Shown: in pieces, positions 33,719 to 59,278 of the stretch | Layout: each line of letters starts with the position of its first letter | Position numbering within the stretch: position 1 is the stretch's first letter | From: an uncultured Paludibacter sp. | GTDB taxonomy: Bacteria > Bacteroidota > Bacteroidia > Bacteroidales > Paludibacteraceae | Assembly: GCA_900498215.1 (NCBI GenBank) | Contig: LR026962.1 | Location: forward strand, 1,974,680-2,034,183 | DNA: 59,504 nucleotides | Direction of reading: 5' to 3' | The notes under the pieces: generated by a model | Databases searched by the model: none | Told to the model about the DNA's origin: nothing | What the model saw: the letters and a program-made list of their open reading frames with translations, nothing else | Position numbers and translations under genes: made by a program

Positions 33719-36355
33719 ATGGAACTTGCAAGCAAATACAGCCCGGCGGAAATTGAAGATAAATGGTATGAGTATTGGATGAAAAACGGTTTTTTTCATT
33801 CGGAACCTGATGAACGTGAACCTTACACAATTGTGATTCCACCGCCAAACGTAACCGGCGTGCTTCACATGGGACATATGTTGAATAATACTATTCAGGA
33901 TATTTTGGTGCGTCGTGCGCGCATGTTAGGTAAAAACGCCTGCTGGGTTCCGGGAACCGATCACGCTTCCATTGCTACCGAAGCAAAAGTGGTGGCAAAA
34001 TTAGCTTCCGAAGGAATTAAAAAAACCGATTTGTCGCGTGAAGAATTTCTCAAACACGCTTGGGATTGGACTCATAAACACGGCGGAATTATCCTTGAAC
34101 AGCTTAAAAAACTCGGCGCTTCGTGCGATTGGGAACGAACCGCTTTCACAATGGACGAAAAACGCTCCGAAAGTGTATTGAAAGTTTTTATGGATTTATA
34201 CAACAAAGGTTTGATTTATCGTGGTGTGCGAATGGTAAATTGGGATCCAAAAGCGCTTACGGCACTTTCTGACGAAGAAGTAATATTTAAAGAACAGCAA
34301 GGAAAGCTCTTCTACCTCCGTTACAAAATCGACGGTGAAGATGGATATGCAGTTGTGGCTACAACCAGACCTGAAACAATAATGGGTGATACTGCTATGT
34401 GTATCAATCCAAACGATCCTAAAAATCAACATTTGAAAGGTAAAAAAGTAATTGTTCCATTGATTAATCGTGTTGTTCCGGTAATTGAAGATGAATATGT
34501 GGATGTGGAATTTGGAACGGGATGTTTAAAAGTAACTCCTGCACACGATGTGAATGATTATATGCTGGGTGAAAAATACAATCTTCCTTCTATTGATATT
34601 TTTAATGATAACGGAACGTTAAACGAACACGGTGAAATGTATGCCGGAATGGATCGTTTTGATGTACGAAAACAGATCGAAAAAGACCTTGAAGCTGCCG
34701 GTTTACTTGAAAAAACAGAACCTTACACTAATAAAGTAGGTTTTTCGGAACGTACGGATGTGCCGATTGAACCAAAACTTTCTATGCAGTGGTTCTTAAA
34801 AATGGAGCAATTGGCGCAACCTGCTTTGAAAGCGGTGATGGACGATGACATTAAACTTTATCCGTCAAAATTTAAAAATACTTACCGTCACTGGATGGAA
34901 AACGTAAAAGATTGGTGTATTTCACGTCAGCTTTGGTGGGGGCATCGCATTCCTGCATATTTTCTTCCTCAGGGAGGTTTTGTTGTTGCTTTGAGCAAAG
35001 AAGAAGCTTATGAAAAAGCTTTAAAAATGGTCAATTATCCGTTATCAATGGATGATTTACGTCAGGATGAAGATTGCTTGGATACTTGGTTTTCTTCTTG
35101 GTTGTGGCCGATTTCTGTTTTTGACGGAATAAATCAACCTGAAAATAAAGACATTCAATACTATTATCCGACAAACGATTTGGTAACCGCTCCCGAAATT
35201 TTATTTTTCTGGGTAGCGCGTATGATTATTGCCGGATACGAATATGAACACGAAATGCCTTTCAAAAATGTATATCTTACCGGAATTGTACGTGATAAAT
35301 TGGGGCGTAAAATGTCAAAATCATTGGGGAATTCTCCTGATCCGTTGGAATTGATTCCCACATACGGAGCTGATGCGGTTCGTTTGGGAATGTTGCTTAC
35401 TTCGCCTGCCGGAAACGATTTGCCTTACGATGACTCCCTTTGCGAACAGGGAAGAAATTTCAACAACAAAATTTGGAACGCTTTCCGTTTGGTAAAAGGA
35501 TGGAGCCTCCCCCCAACCCCCTCCACAGGAGGGGGAGAAATATCCCAACCTGCATCTGCAAAAGTGGCTGTAAAATGGTTTGAAGCGCAATTAAACAAAG
35601 CTTTAGCTGAAATTGAAGATTTATTCGGAAAGTATCGCCTTTCGGAAGCGTTGATGGCTGTGTATAAACTTTTCTGGGACGAGTTTTCATCCTGGTATCT
35701 TGAAATGGTGAAACCTGCATATCAACAACCCATTGATAATGAAACTTATAATGCTACTCTTGGATTTTTCGATGCGCTGTTGAAAGCGTTGCATCCGTTT
35801 ATGCCGTTTATCACCGAAGAACTTTGGCAGGCGCTTGAAGACAGAAATGAAGGTGAAAGTATTATGATGCAAATGATGCCAAAAACTCAAAGTGCAGATG
35901 AAAAAGTGATTGGTGATTTTGAAAAAACAAAAGAAATTATTGCCGGAATTCGTACTATCCGTTTGCAAAAAAATATCCCGAATAAAGAAACATTGAAACT
36001 GCAAATTAACGGCGAACACAATGCGGATTTTGACGCGGCGATTGAGAAACTTTGTAATCTGGAAAATATTGAAAAAACTTCGGAAAAAGCGCCGGGCTCA
36101 GTTTCTTTCTTGGTAGGAACTACGGAATACACTGTTCCGATGGGCAGTTTGATAAATGCCGAAGAAGAAATCAAGAAAATGGAAGCTGAAATTGTGTATT
36201 TGGAAGGTTTCTTAAATTCTGTGATGAAAAAACTTGGCAACGAAAAATTTGTGACCAATGCCAAACCGGAAATTGTAGAAGCGGAACGCAAAAAACAAGC
36301 CGATGCGGAAAGTAAAATCGCATCGTTGAAAGAAAGTATTTCGGCTTTAAGGTAA
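33719..36355 (+). CDS. valS: Valyl-tRNA synthetase (contains an in-frame palindromic repeat)
   Basis: Charges tRNA-Val. The 878 residues show the class I motifs: HMGH at about 50-53 and KMSKS at 531-535. The editing domain lies between ([32 protein letters not shown]), a tRNA-binding helical domain follows, and a C-terminal coiled coil runs from about 805 ([20 protein letters not shown]). At residues 596-607, just after FRLVKGW, a peptide [12 protein letters not shown] is encoded by a GC-rich palindrome unlike the surrounding AT-rich DNA. The frame is intact before and after, so the enzyme is probably active with a surface insertion between the catalytic and anticodon-binding parts. It has its own -7 box and a terminator. 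Confidence 0.97.
35505..35539 (+). repeat. GC-rich palindromic element, copy 1, inside valS
   Basis: Core hairpin CCCCCTCC-ACA-GGAGGGGG (35517-35535), preceded by CCTCCCCCCAA. It is the most G/C-dense tract for kilobases. Shared pattern with the other three copies: a C-run, (T)AA, a second C-run, a short A-containing centre, a matching G-run. It is in the sense orientation relative to valS and adds 12 codons or so without shifting the frame. Confidence 0.75.
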
Positions 36356-56108: not shown

Positions 56109-58082
56109 TTATAATAAGTTTAATACCCTGTCTAATTCTTCCGAGAGTTTTGATTTAAAAAAGTCGATTTGTTTGATTTCGCTCATCAATTCCATTGTTC
56201 GTGTTTCATCCGATTTTTCGGTTGCGGCTTTCATTTCGAGCATTTTATCTTTTCGTTTTTGTAAAATCATTACCAATTTGTACTCGTAAATGTATCGCGG
56301 AGCAAGTTCATTCAGCCGATTATCGTCGGTTTCAATTTGGTGAAATTTGGAATGGATTTTACTCAAAACATATTTATCAGAAATTAAATCTGCCGTAAGC
56401 GAACTTAATTCATAATCGGGATGATTGAGGAAATATTTTTCAGCAATAAAATTATTCTCTTCAAAACTATTTTTATATTCTTCAACCAATTTGCGGTGTT
56501 TCTCGTTTTGAAAAATCAATTGATCGTTTTCCAATTCTTCAAAAATATATTGATCGACACACAACGTATTTCCATTTTCATCTTTGAAAAGAATATTTCT
56601 GCCGTACTTCAACAGCGTACGGATAATGTTTCGTTCTTCTTTTTCAAATTTTGTAATAGAAATGGTTTCCGGCGTTTTTTTTACCGAAACGGTTTCTTCT
56701 TTTTTCTCGTCTTCCGGTTTTTTATTTATCCGCGCTTCAAATTCTTTGGTTTTTATTTTCGATATTTCGTGATAAAGAACGTTCTCTGCCACATTCAACA
56801 GCGTGCTGCATTCTTTTACATATTCCGCGCGGATAATTTGATTGGGAATAATCGCAATGCTCTGTACAATATCCTGCACGAGTTTTGCCTTTTTTATCGG
56901 GTCGTTTCCGGCATCTTCGAGTAAGAGATTGGTTTTAAAACGGATAAAATCGGCAGCATTTTTCTCCACAAATTCGATAAAATCCGAAGAGTTGTGTTTG
57001 CGTGCAAAACTGTCGGGGTCGTCGCCATCGGGAAGAAGCAACACTTTGATGTTCAGTCCTTCTTCGAGCAACATATCAATACCGCGTATGGATGCTTTTA
57101 TTCCTGCGGGATCGCCATCGTAAATTACGGTAACATTTTCAGTAAAGCGATGAATAAGGCGGATTTGTCCCGGAGTAAGCGAAGTTCCCGACGAAGCCAC
57201 AACGTTTTCAATACCGCTTTGGTGCATTGAAATTACATCGGTGTAACCTTCTACCAAATAACAACGGTCGTGTTTTACAATGGCTTGTTTGGCAAAGAAA
57301 ATACCGTAAAGTTCGTTGCTTTTGTGATAAATTTCACTTTCGGGCGAATTGACGTATTTGGCGGTTTTATCGTCTTTTTTCAGCACACGACCTCCGAAAG
57401 CCAATACTTTTCCCGACAAAGAATGCACGGGAAACATTACGCGACCTCGAAAACGGTCAGCCCCCCTAAATCCCCCCACAGGGGGGACTTTTTCTCCGTT
57501 TTCGGAGGTAGCATAATCTATTGTAAGCCCTGTTTTTACCAAAAAATCTTTGTTGTAACCGGCTTTCAACGCTTCTTTGGTGAAAGCGTCGCGCTCATCC
57601 AAACAATATCCGAGTTGGAATTTTTGTATAATATCGTCGCGGAAACCACGCTCGTGGAAATAACTCAATCCTACAGCTTTTCCCTCAACGTGATGATGAA
57701 GCGTGTTTGTAAAATATTTTTGTGCAAATTCATTGACCAGCAACATACTTTCGCGGTCGTTGTTGGCTTGCAATTCTTCCGCAGTAAGTTCTTTTTCAAC
57801 TATTTCGATGTGGTATTTTTTTGCCAGATATTTGAGCGCATCCACATACGAAAGCTGTTCGTGTTCCATAATAAAATGAACGGAATTTCCGCCTTTTCCG
57901 CATCCAAAACATTTGAAAATTCCTTTGGCAGGCGAAACGGTAAACGAAGGCGTTTTTTCGTTGTGGAAAGGACACAAACCAATCATATTCACACCGCGCC
58001 GGCGCAAAGTAACATAATCGCCTACCACATCTTCAATGCGTGCGGCTTCGTGAATTCGTTCTATGGTTGCTTGATCTATCAT
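56109..58082 (-). CDS. dnaG: DNA primase (contains an in-frame palindromic repeat)
   Basis: Makes RNA primers at the replication fork. The 657 residues hold the CHC2 zinc finger (Cys37, His40, Cys58, Cys61 in GLCPFHNEKTPSF...FKCFGCGKGG), the primase core with DRFRGRVMFPVHSLSGKVLAFGGR, the Toprim domain with YLVEGYTDVISMHQSGIENVVASSGTSL and VIYDGDPAG, and a helicase-binding C-terminus. Directly before the DRFRGRVMFP motif, residues 199-208 (VPPVGGFRGA) come from a GC-rich palindrome that stands out from the AT-rich gene. The frame is intact, so the enzyme must tolerate an insertion between the N-terminal part of the core and this basic motif. The ATG at 58082 sits beside another palindrome copy. 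Confidence 0.96.
   Translation of the reverse strand: MIDQATIERIHEAARIEDVVGDYVTLRRRGVNMIGLCPFHNEKTPSFTVSPAKGIFKCFGCGKGGNSVHFIMEHEQLSYVDALKYLAKKYHIEIVEKELTAEELQANNDRESMLLVNEFAQKYFTNTLHHHVEGKAVGLSYFHERGFRDDIIQKFQLGYCLDERDAFTKEALKAGYNKDFLVKTGLTIDYATSENGEKVPPVGGFRGADRFRGRVMFPVHSLSGKVLAFGGRVLKKDDKTAKYVNSPESEIYHKSNELYGIFFAKQAIVKHDRCYLVEGYTDVISMHQSGIENVVASSGTSLTPGQIRLIHRFTENVTVIYDGDPAGIKASIRGIDMLLEEGLNIKVLLLPDGDDPDSFARKHNSSDFIEFVEKNAADFIRFKTNLLLEDAGNDPIKKAKLVQDIVQSIAIIPNQIIRAEYVKECSTLLNVAENVLYHEISKIKTKEFEARINKKPEDEKKEETVSVKKTPETISITKFEKEERNIIRTLLKYGRNILFKDENGNTLCVDQYIFEELENDQLIFQNEKHRKLVEEYKNSFEENNFIAEKYFLNHPDYELSSLTADLISDKYVLSKIHSKFHQIETDDNRLNELAPRYIYEYKLVMILQKRKDKMLEMKAATEKSDETRTMELMSEIKQIDFFKSKLSEELDRVLNLL
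57458..57489 (-). repeat. GC-rich palindromic element, copy 2, inside dnaG
   Basis: Plus-strand core TCCCCCC-ACA-GGGGGGA (57471-57487), preceded by CAGCCCCCCTAAA. Read on the plus strand it aligns with the valS copy: C-run, AA, second C-run, CACAGG centre, G-run, GA. Relative to dnaG it is antisense, so a different peptide (VPPVGGFRGA) is encoded, still in frame. Confidence 0.75.
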
Positions 58083-58083
58083 T

Positions 58084-58110
58084 TGCCCCTTTAACTCCCT
58101 GAAGGGTTAA
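58084..58110 (+). repeat. GC-rich palindromic element, copy 3, upstream of dnaG
   Basis: GCCCCTTTAACTCCC followed by TGAAGGGTTAA. It has the same order (C-run, TAAC, C-run, centre, G-run) with shorter runs. It begins 2 nt upstream of the dnaG ATG (58082) and fills most of the gap to the next gene, so it lies in the dnaG leader. Confidence 0.55.
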
Positions 58111-58113
58111 TTA

Positions 58114-58791
58114 TTATTTACCTTCTTTTATTTTAATGTCGATTTTTTCGGTATCATCAAACTCAAATTCTTCGCCTTTTTGATTGCAATTGTAAACAAT
58201 AATAGGTATCTTATTTAGTTTTTCAGATGCAATCATATAGAACTTGCGTTTTTCACCATCTCTAAAGATATATTCAAAAACAGCAATTCCTTTTTGAACG
58301 TCAATGATATGGATGATAACTTCTTGTCTATAGTTGTAATATGTATTTATGAGTTTAAATACATAAGTTTTGCTGTCAATTTTTTTTTGATTAATAATTT
58401 TATTAGCGTAAGAACCTTCTCCTGTCCAATCAATAAAAGTTGTGTCATTAATTGATGCCTTGTAATGAAATAAAAAATCACAGGGCTTATATGCATAAAA
58501 TTTTCCTTTGTATTTCTCTATCTCAATCCAGTTTTTCCACGGAATAACAGGTTTGTCTTTATTGAGATTTTGATTTCTTTCTTTTAATTGCTTAAGAGAA
58601 TTCTTATATGTACTTTTGTCAAAATCATCAAATTTAAAATTATTTATTTCATTGTAATACTTGCTGTTTTTATTATAATCAATAAATATTTTATGAACAC
58701 TATCGTTTTCGATAAAAACAGTATCATTTTTATTTTGTCCAAAAAGAGGACAGGCAAAACAAAAAATTAATATTTTTACAATTAATTTCAT
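58114..58791 (-). CDS. Hypothetical exported protein
   Basis: Function unknown. From the ATG at 58791 the 225 residues begin MKLIVKILIFCFACPLFGQNKND, a signal peptide. The mature part is lysine-, asparagine- and aspartate-rich with a beta-type pattern (KFYAYKPCDFLFHYKASINDTTFIDWTGEGSYANKIINQKKIDSKTYVFKLINTYYNYRQEVIIHIIDVQKGIAVFEYIF). The frame is open 14 codons further up, but that extension (MNKPLTPLKGNKNK) is encoded by a palindromic repeat and would bury the signal peptide, so I reject it. It lies between dnaG and the DUF4268 gene on the same strand. Confidence 0.72.
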   Translation of the reverse strand: MKLIVKILIFCFACPLFGQNKNDTVFIENDSVHKIFIDYNKNSKYYNEINNFKFDDFDKSTYKNSLKQLKERNQNLNKDKPVIPWKNWIEIEKYKGKFYAYKPCDFLFHYKASINDTTFIDWTGEGSYANKIINQKKIDSKTYVFKLINTYYNYRQEVIIHIIDVQKGIAVFEYIFRDGEKRKFYMIASEKLNKIPIIVYNCNQKGEEFEFDDTEKIDIKIKEGK

Positions 58792-58802
58792 TTTATTTTT
58801 AT

Positions 58803-58828
58803 TCCCCTTTAGGGGGGTTAGGGGTTTA
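58803..58828 (-). repeat. GC-rich palindromic element, copy 4
   Basis: On the minus strand TAAACCCCTAACCCCCC followed by TAAAGGGGAA. It has the same C-run/AAC/C-run/AAA/G-run pattern. It provides the TAA stop of the DUF4268 gene (58826-58828) and creates a false in-frame N-terminal extension of the next gene. It lies 0.7 kb from copy 3 and 1.3 kb from copy 2. Confidence 0.65.
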
Positions 58829-59278
58829 TTCAATCACATCTTTTACATTCCGAAACGCCTTTTCCAATTTCAGCATTTCTTCCGACATAAAACGGTAAAA
58901 TTCCATCCAATTATTTCTTCTGTGGATGTCAATACCTGATTTTTGACTGTAAATGCGACATACTTCGTTGCCTGTTTCGCGCACATACGCAAAATTCCAA
59001 ATCAATCCTTGCGGAAAATCTTCTTCCATCAGCGCTTTATAACGTTCAAACTGTTCGTAAGTTTCCAATCGTTTTGTTTCATCCGGATGATTGAGTTCCA
59101 AAATTACAAAAGCGCCGTCGCGGTTTGCGTCAAATTTCAGTTCCACCCCTTTCATTTTGGTATTATAAAGCATAAATTTGCTTTTTCGCTTTCCAAGCAC
59201 GGGATGATTACTGCAAAAAACACCAAATCCTTCCCAAAATTCTTTTTTCAACTGCTTTAATTCGTCTTTGGTGTACAT
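58826..59278 (-). CDS. DUF4268 domain protein
   Basis: The 150 residues correspond to a stand-alone DUF4268 domain, a family of unknown function sometimes fused to nuclease-like parts: MYTKDELKQLKKEFWEGFGVFCSNHP, KFMLYNTKMKGVELKFDANRDGAFVILELNHPDETKRLETYEQFERYKALMEEDFPQGLIWNFAYVRETG, RIYSQKSGIDIHRRNNWMEFYRFMSEEMLKLEKAFRN. The stop codon is donated by a palindromic element. It is divergent from rpoN. Confidence 0.85.
   Translation of the reverse strand: MYTKDELKQLKKEFWEGFGVFCSNHPVLGKRKSKFMLYNTKMKGVELKFDANRDGAFVILELNHPDETKRLETYEQFERYKALMEEDFPQGLIWNFAYVRETGNEVCRIYSQKSGIDIHRRNNWMEFYRFMSEEMLKLEKAFRNVKDVIE

Follow-up and report, generated by a model that had tools for sequence, protein, structure and literature searches.

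The valyl-tRNA synthetase gene (valS) of the uncultured Paludibacter sp. studied here carries a GC-rich palindrome in frame, and by its sequence design this palindrome belongs to a known class of repeats, the BoxC/PIT/TM class II intrastrand triplex motifs. Palindromes of the same class are found as inverted pairs around a domain of the DUF559 nuclease family, which itself lies in frame inside conserved host proteins. We consider the valS palindrome probably to be a solo BoxC/PIT-type copy, a scar or a non-autonomous form of this in-frame DUF559 element. The original prediction, made from one stretch of 59,504 nt (hereafter the window), had proposed an inserting palindromic element tolerated inside a housekeeping enzyme, comparable in principle to the Rickettsia palindromic elements (RPE). 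Membership of the known BoxC/PIT class and the association with the DUF559 nuclease go beyond it.

The valS gene (33719..36355, plus strand) encodes an intact protein of 878 residues with the Pfam domains tRNA-synt_1, Anticodon_1 and Val_tRNA-synt_C, which aligns over its full length to T. thermophilus ValRS (1GAX). The insert, at residues ~596-607, sits between the conserved FRLVKGW and ISQPA, a site that on the 1GAX sequence separates the catalytic part from the anticodon-binding part. With its short flanks it reads GAGCCTCCCCCCAACCCCCTCCACAGGAGGGGGAGAA (35503..35539, plus strand) and encodes 12 residues. Its core is a 30-nt element, CCTCCCCCCAACCCCCTCCACAGGAGGGGG (35506..35535, plus strand), with a GC content of 70% vs 40% for the gene, and the window has one match to the 19-nt core pattern vs 0.01 expected; the palindrome first seen in the raw sequence is real. 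None of the 29 complete ValS sequences from relatives aligned over the site has the insert, and GWEVADIEQPESA or a similar sequence is found there instead; three partial copies from the same genus likewise lack it. Extra residues were therefore rightly predicted, but the net gain is 8 and not the 12 implied, so a few host residues were replaced by the insertion. The valS element has no stop codon in any of its six frames, which is true of only 7 of 72 copies; for most copies, three to five of the frames are open.

On the plus strand, the valS element runs CCTCCCCCC-AA-CCCCCTCC-ACA-GGAGGGGG (35506-35535). The C-rich block CCTCCCCCC (35506..35514) mirrors the 5' stem arm CCCCCTCC (35517..35524) and is the complement of a third strand, while the 3' stem arm is GGAGGGGG (35528..35535). 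Read on the minus strand, the motif core (35506..35535) is CCCCCTCC-TGT-GGAGGGGG-TTG-GGGGGAGG, corresponding to pyrimidine stem, loop, purine stem, loop and third strand, i.e., a hairpin and, after it, a third strand mirroring its purine arm. This strand order, with stems of 6-15 nt and loops of 1-6 nt, defines class II motifs (PMC4666352), and the valS element agrees with it in order, stems and loops. The third strand of class II motifs is antiparallel and forms G.GC, A.AT and T.AT triads with at most one mismatch (PMC4666352); by inspection 8/8 triads of the valS element conform, and 43 of 57 elements of this genome are perfect. Since the descriptor itself requires a C-rich flank, a shuffled third strand is the relevant control, and against it mean triad conformity was 0.94 vs 0.74 for the 57 elements of this genome, 0.93 vs 0.72 for 125 elements at DUF559 loci and 0.94 vs 0.78 for 113 elements from GTDB loci. 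The consensus of the TM-ECO subfamily, CCCTCNCCC N3-6 GGGNGAGGG N3 GGGNGAGGG (PMC4666352), is not matched by the valS copy, whose stems are the 8-nt CCCCCTCC. Another sub-type in this genome, CCTCACCC/CCCTCTCC/GGAGAGGG, comes very close to the E. coli consensus, including its T.A-T triad. A G-quadruplex was rejected as the primary design: some types have four G-runs on the G strand, but the GGAGAGGG class fits the triplex triads better. Such a structure may still form in vitro.

A second in-frame copy in the window is a PIT-type element on the minus strand (57461..57487; CCCCCCTAAATCCCCCCACAGGGGGGA on the plus strand) in dnaG, which encodes a DNA primase of 657 residues (56109..58082, minus strand; Pfam Zn_ribbon_DnaG, DNAG_N and Toprim). 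It lies at residues ~199-208 and adds a net 12 residues that are absent in 5/5 relatives. A short PIT-type element (58804..58826, minus strand) occupies the extreme 5' edge of ORF 58114-58833, which was called from a TTG and reads through the palindrome. The true start of this ORF is probably the ATG of MKLIVKILIFCF, with the element probably just upstream of it, and such elements are a hazard for start-codon annotation wherever they precede genes. Between dnaG and its upstream gene, a weak degenerate hairpin (58085..58107, no strand assigned) went undetected by the descriptor and is a doubtful member of the family. The original prediction had the same element recurring at 57458, 58084 and 58803; the first and last of these are real, the middle one is only the weak hairpin, and the copies are variants of one family and not identical.

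The genome has many further copies, and together with the empty valS sites of relatives they support the proposed inserting element in a housekeeping enzyme. A whole-genome search gave 26 matches to the family pattern vs 0 for reversed-pattern controls, and an unbiased sample of 459.5 kb of this genome held 15 copies vs 0 in a Markov shuffle. Besides the pattern searches, a spread of stretches and targeted stretches together covered ~18% of the genome without tiling, so in-gene proportions are sample figures; of the ~16 copies in the unbiased stretches, ~4 clearly lie inside genes. A near-exact valS core was found in at least 120 stretches of GTDB genomes from Bacteroidota, Planctomycetes, Clostridia, Cyanobacteria, Gammaproteobacteria and other groups. 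Two dense arrangements were also noted. At G000:C1:3132902-3133908 (L092), inverted PITs of two sub-types alternate with a period of ~126 nt, a tandemly expanded cluster of palindrome pairs; at G000:C1:409697-411274 (L094), more than 10 PITs of several sub-types, arranged as inverted pairs, lie outside long ORFs and are partly duplicated. The whole genome of G019, from the same family, contains the reversed control pattern GGGGN{2,8}GGGGN{1,8}CCCC 213 and 200 times vs 0 and 3 for the PIT pattern; these matches are a repeat family of opposite strand order.

Besides ValS and DnaG, in-frame elements were found in the sample of this genome in IleS (five), AlaS, MetH (two), PrmC, PDH-E2 (two) and a glycosyltransferase. 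Elements at the ends of MnmE, HutI, HisC and two ABC-transporter genes were also identified, and some of these may be mis-called starts. The AlaS element adds 10 residues and is absent in 5/5 relatives, MetH is empty in four of five genomes searched (G008, G005, G003 and G026), and IleS sites 217, 344 and 651 are empty in most of 30 loci. Empty sites in relatives polarise these events as gains by in-frame insertion. From gene to gene, the frame and the orientation in which the element is read differ. REPs of other families are already known from within genes, tRNA synthetases among them (PMC3733652), so tolerance of palindromes inside genes is not new in itself. A separate observation concerns IleS of G032 (L365), a genome with no DUF559 match, where the ORF of 1314 residues is ~150 residues longer than in relatives, possibly from another in-frame insert or an extended ORF.

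DUF559 is a protein family of unknown function. In MetH of this genome, a single open frame encodes PIT(+)-DUF559 (PF04480, 1e-28)-PIT(-). A PF04480 profile search of 41 related genomes gave many matches inside ORFs of 550-1350 residues, and Pfam and alignments identified the hosts of in-frame DUF559 domains as ValS, LeuS, IleS, MetH, UvrA, PrmC and SpoIID. Across 57 DUF559 loci from two data sets, a PIT lies within 250 nt at 49 and inverted PITs flank both sides at 30; for the 28 domains within long ORFs, the numbers are 27 and 21, respectively. The same descriptor found inverted flanks at 0/25 Y1-transposase loci and in 2 of 600 random windows. In other families of Bacteroidota (L332, L334), inverted palindromes with DUF559 were also seen inside long HsdR-type-like ORFs, the host being named by eye. 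Of 14 open-access papers that name DUF559, none deals with palindromes or mobility, judging from title and abstract.

In 23 DUF559 copies, the catalytic residues E, D, E-x-D and H do not vary. The DUF559 profile matches PDB 3HRL (3e-31) and also 3R3P (1.4e-6), a mobile intron protein by its listing, which we take to be the EDxHD homing endonuclease I-Bth0305I. The 3R3P match relates DUF559 to the Vsr-like EDxHD family of I-Bth0305I (PMC3943268), and the invariant residues include the conserved acidic catalytic positions; DUF559 may be an active nuclease with a role in moving the unit. A tree of 60 DUF559 domains places most in-frame copies in one group (90/91), with many forks lacking resolution. 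Some same-site copies are joined across genera (ValS, 97/81; the second MetH site; HsdR-like), and different genes of one genus are also joined (UvrA with PrmC; IleS with UvrA). This branching is compatible with copies inherited or homing at one site as well as with copies that jumped to new genes.

The palindromes could instead be an independent selfish or structural repeat moved by another agent, with DUF559 cassettes captured between them by recombination and not driving their spread. PITs indeed far outnumber DUF559 copies: this genome has more than 100 PIT pattern matches (overlaps counted), most of them not beside its three DUF559 domains. Also counting against a DUF559-borne unit are the approximately half of DUF559 loci with no clear inverted pair, the weaker or different flanks of free-standing DUF559 genes, and the lack of any definable target-site duplication. 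E. coli BoxC was reported without mobility genes (PMC4666352). The E. coli K-12 DUF559 gene ycjD (NC_000913.3:1351204-1351760, L296) lies ~170 nt from motif 9 in Table 1 of Holder (PMC4666352), yet it is near only 1 of the 23 E. coli motifs; this single case may be a lead that the PIT-DUF559 link extends beyond Bacteroidota. What capture does not readily explain is the consistent orientation, as most in-frame copies have a + palindrome upstream and a - palindrome downstream with the ends ~10-110 nt from the DUF559 domain, and the fact that such flanks were found around no other enzyme, Y1 transposases (0/25) included. Furthermore, PIT copy number tracks DUF559 presence across the 41 genomes (Spearman 0.61; Fisher p 3e-5), also when the home genus is left out (p 0.004), these tests ignoring finer phylogeny; three PIT-rich genomes with no strong DUF559 match and three PIT-poor genomes with one count against this trend. 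Overall we regard capture as unlikely.

Site histories among relatives are consistent with an element that carries its own nuclease. The clearest is IleS 651, where empty, full, remnant and solo forms occur among close relatives. The site is empty (HYPFENKELI...FPADF) in G006 of the same genus and G008 of the same family, holds a full palindrome-DUF559-palindrome in G004 and G005, has two palindromes separated by 17 residues in G000 and a solo palindrome in G003, and the frame is kept in all forms. Outside the family, DUF559 also fills this loop in Prolixibacteraceae (L173) and Galbibacter sp. EGI 63066 (L152), two loci found solely through their valS-type palindrome. At one PrmC site, G005 has DUF559, G004 two palindromes and G000 one; one MetH site is occupied in G000, G004 and G007; and ValS carries DUF559 near residue 205 in two genera (G004, G017). 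Occupancy of one site across lineages, with empty relatives, was thus observed at LeuS, IleS, ValS and MetH sites, although loop tolerance alone would be equally expected to produce such recurrence. Most of the relatives are draft genomes; single-contig genomes and one named strain give the same pattern.

An origin with no dedicated enzyme, in which stalled forks give rise to the palindromes through template switching or fold-back synthesis and in-frame survivors are kept by chance, appears very improbable to us. Such a process would suit triplex DNA, for which a block to polymerases in vitro and a link with local instability have been reported (PMC4666352), and it would suit the insertion footprints, in which a few host residues are replaced without clean duplications. 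It leaves unexplained why near-identical motifs occur in many phyla, why they are arranged inversely around DUF559 and why full elements occupy the same sites across genera. We give hardly any credence to the idea that the host enzymes benefit from the inserted peptides and domains, which selection would then keep, e.g., as regulatory loops. In several cases, inserts of different genera do share both the enzyme and the loop, but tolerance or homing predicts this recurrence equally well, and the inserts are patchily present among close relatives, vary in frame and orientation by gene, and leave scars that differ between sister species. An ordinary GC-rich indel or a chance palindrome with no wider family, for which nothing speaks beyond the variable length of the loops at insertion sites, is refuted by how many copies there are, how widely they are distributed and how well they conform to the motif.

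Known splicing and transposition systems were also considered as candidates. Pfam found no Hint or splicing domain in the inserts, where DUF559 and the related MTES_1575 nuclease family were the only matches, and inteins were rejected on the absence of the Hint domain. Group I and II introns were likewise rejected: six loci and the window gave no Rfam match to intron RNA, and most in-ORF inserts are free of stop codons. Y1/RAYT transposases were rejected as mobilisers, with inverted flanks at none of 25 PF01797 loci and a flank of any kind at one; this genome has 12 PF01797 matches, and none of the loci examined has inverted-element flanks. Membership of the GTAG/CGTC REPs was also rejected, the tetranucleotide foot being absent beside the valS element. 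Separately, a 149-residue IS200-type Y1 transposase is present in four equal-scoring copies (G000:C1:561228, 678720, 764278 and 828015), which by their look are a recently active insertion sequence.

We return to a compact mobile unit of this bacterial group in which the palindromes would be the inverted ends and the DUF559 nuclease domain the sole gene. On balance, we incline to view BoxC/PIT motifs as the recognition ends of selfish elements that do without splicing, with DUF559 as an in-frame gene, homing-like spread and retargeting, and peptide scars left across many bacteria. A complete palindrome-DUF559-palindrome unit would be translated in frame and without stops as part of the host protein. 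The nuclease made inside that protein could nick or cut DNA at or near unoccupied sites or palindrome structures, and the palindromic ends would serve as recognition or repair structures of the unit. Repair would then insert a copy of the element, homing-like at the same site or else in a new gene, and only insertions that keep the frame in tolerant loops would survive. Scars made of two palindromes, or of one as in valS, could be left when the interior is deleted or when just the ends move. The valS copy may be such a deletion scar or a product of ends mobilised in trans; among relatives, none was seen to have the full DUF559 element at valS-596, and a nuclease may never have been part of this copy.

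These elements share features with several known systems. As in the BoxC/PIT/TM motifs described by Hoyne and Maher and by others (PMC4666352), the order is pyrimidine, purine and third strand, the triad rules are the same, stems are 8-9 nt and loops ~3 nt, inverted pairs are common and the distribution among bacteria is wide. In E. coli, copies are reported to lie only between genes, with no mobility genes and an unclear origin (Holder et al. 2015, PMC4666352), whereas those studied here lie in frame in essential genes, are polarised as insertions by empty sites and have a nuclease domain between inverted copies. REPs, REPINs and RAYTs (PMC3733652, PMC3116915, PMC6006769) also comprise short GC-rich palindromes and inverted dimers, some of them intragenic, including in tRNA synthetases; the valS element differs in having no GTAG/CGTC foot, and Y1/RAYT genes here have no inverted flanks. 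EDxHD homing endonucleases such as I-Bth0305I (PMC3943268) resemble DUF559 in profile and in their recurrence at conserved sites of essential genes across lineages, but here no intron or intein surrounds the nuclease, no separate DNA-binding module was seen, and the domain lies in the host frame with palindromic ends. Inteins are likewise nuclease-bearing inserts translated in frame in essential enzymes, but the units described here have no Hint or splicing domain. RPE, like the elements found here, are palindromes that conserved protein genes tolerate within their reading frame; they differ in lineage and base composition, and the 30-37 nt C/G-rich unit of this Bacteroidota genome is set apart by lineage and size only. 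To our knowledge, no nuclease is known for RPE, whereas DUF559 is flanked by palindromes here. RPE-1 units are also longer (PMC3733652). While the repeat class of the palindrome and in-frame palindromes in other systems are already known, no counterpart of a nuclease-bearing, unspliced, palindrome-ended unit was found in the open-access literature.

Holder et al. (2015; PMC4666352) left open whether the E. coli motif is inserted or deleted, and intragenic copies in aligned conserved proteins show gain directly. DUF559 becomes a testable candidate for the enzyme that moves PITs. If this is true, the element would survive inside essential enzymes without any splicing, and aminoacyl-tRNA synthetases and repair proteins would acquire new loops and inserted domains from it.
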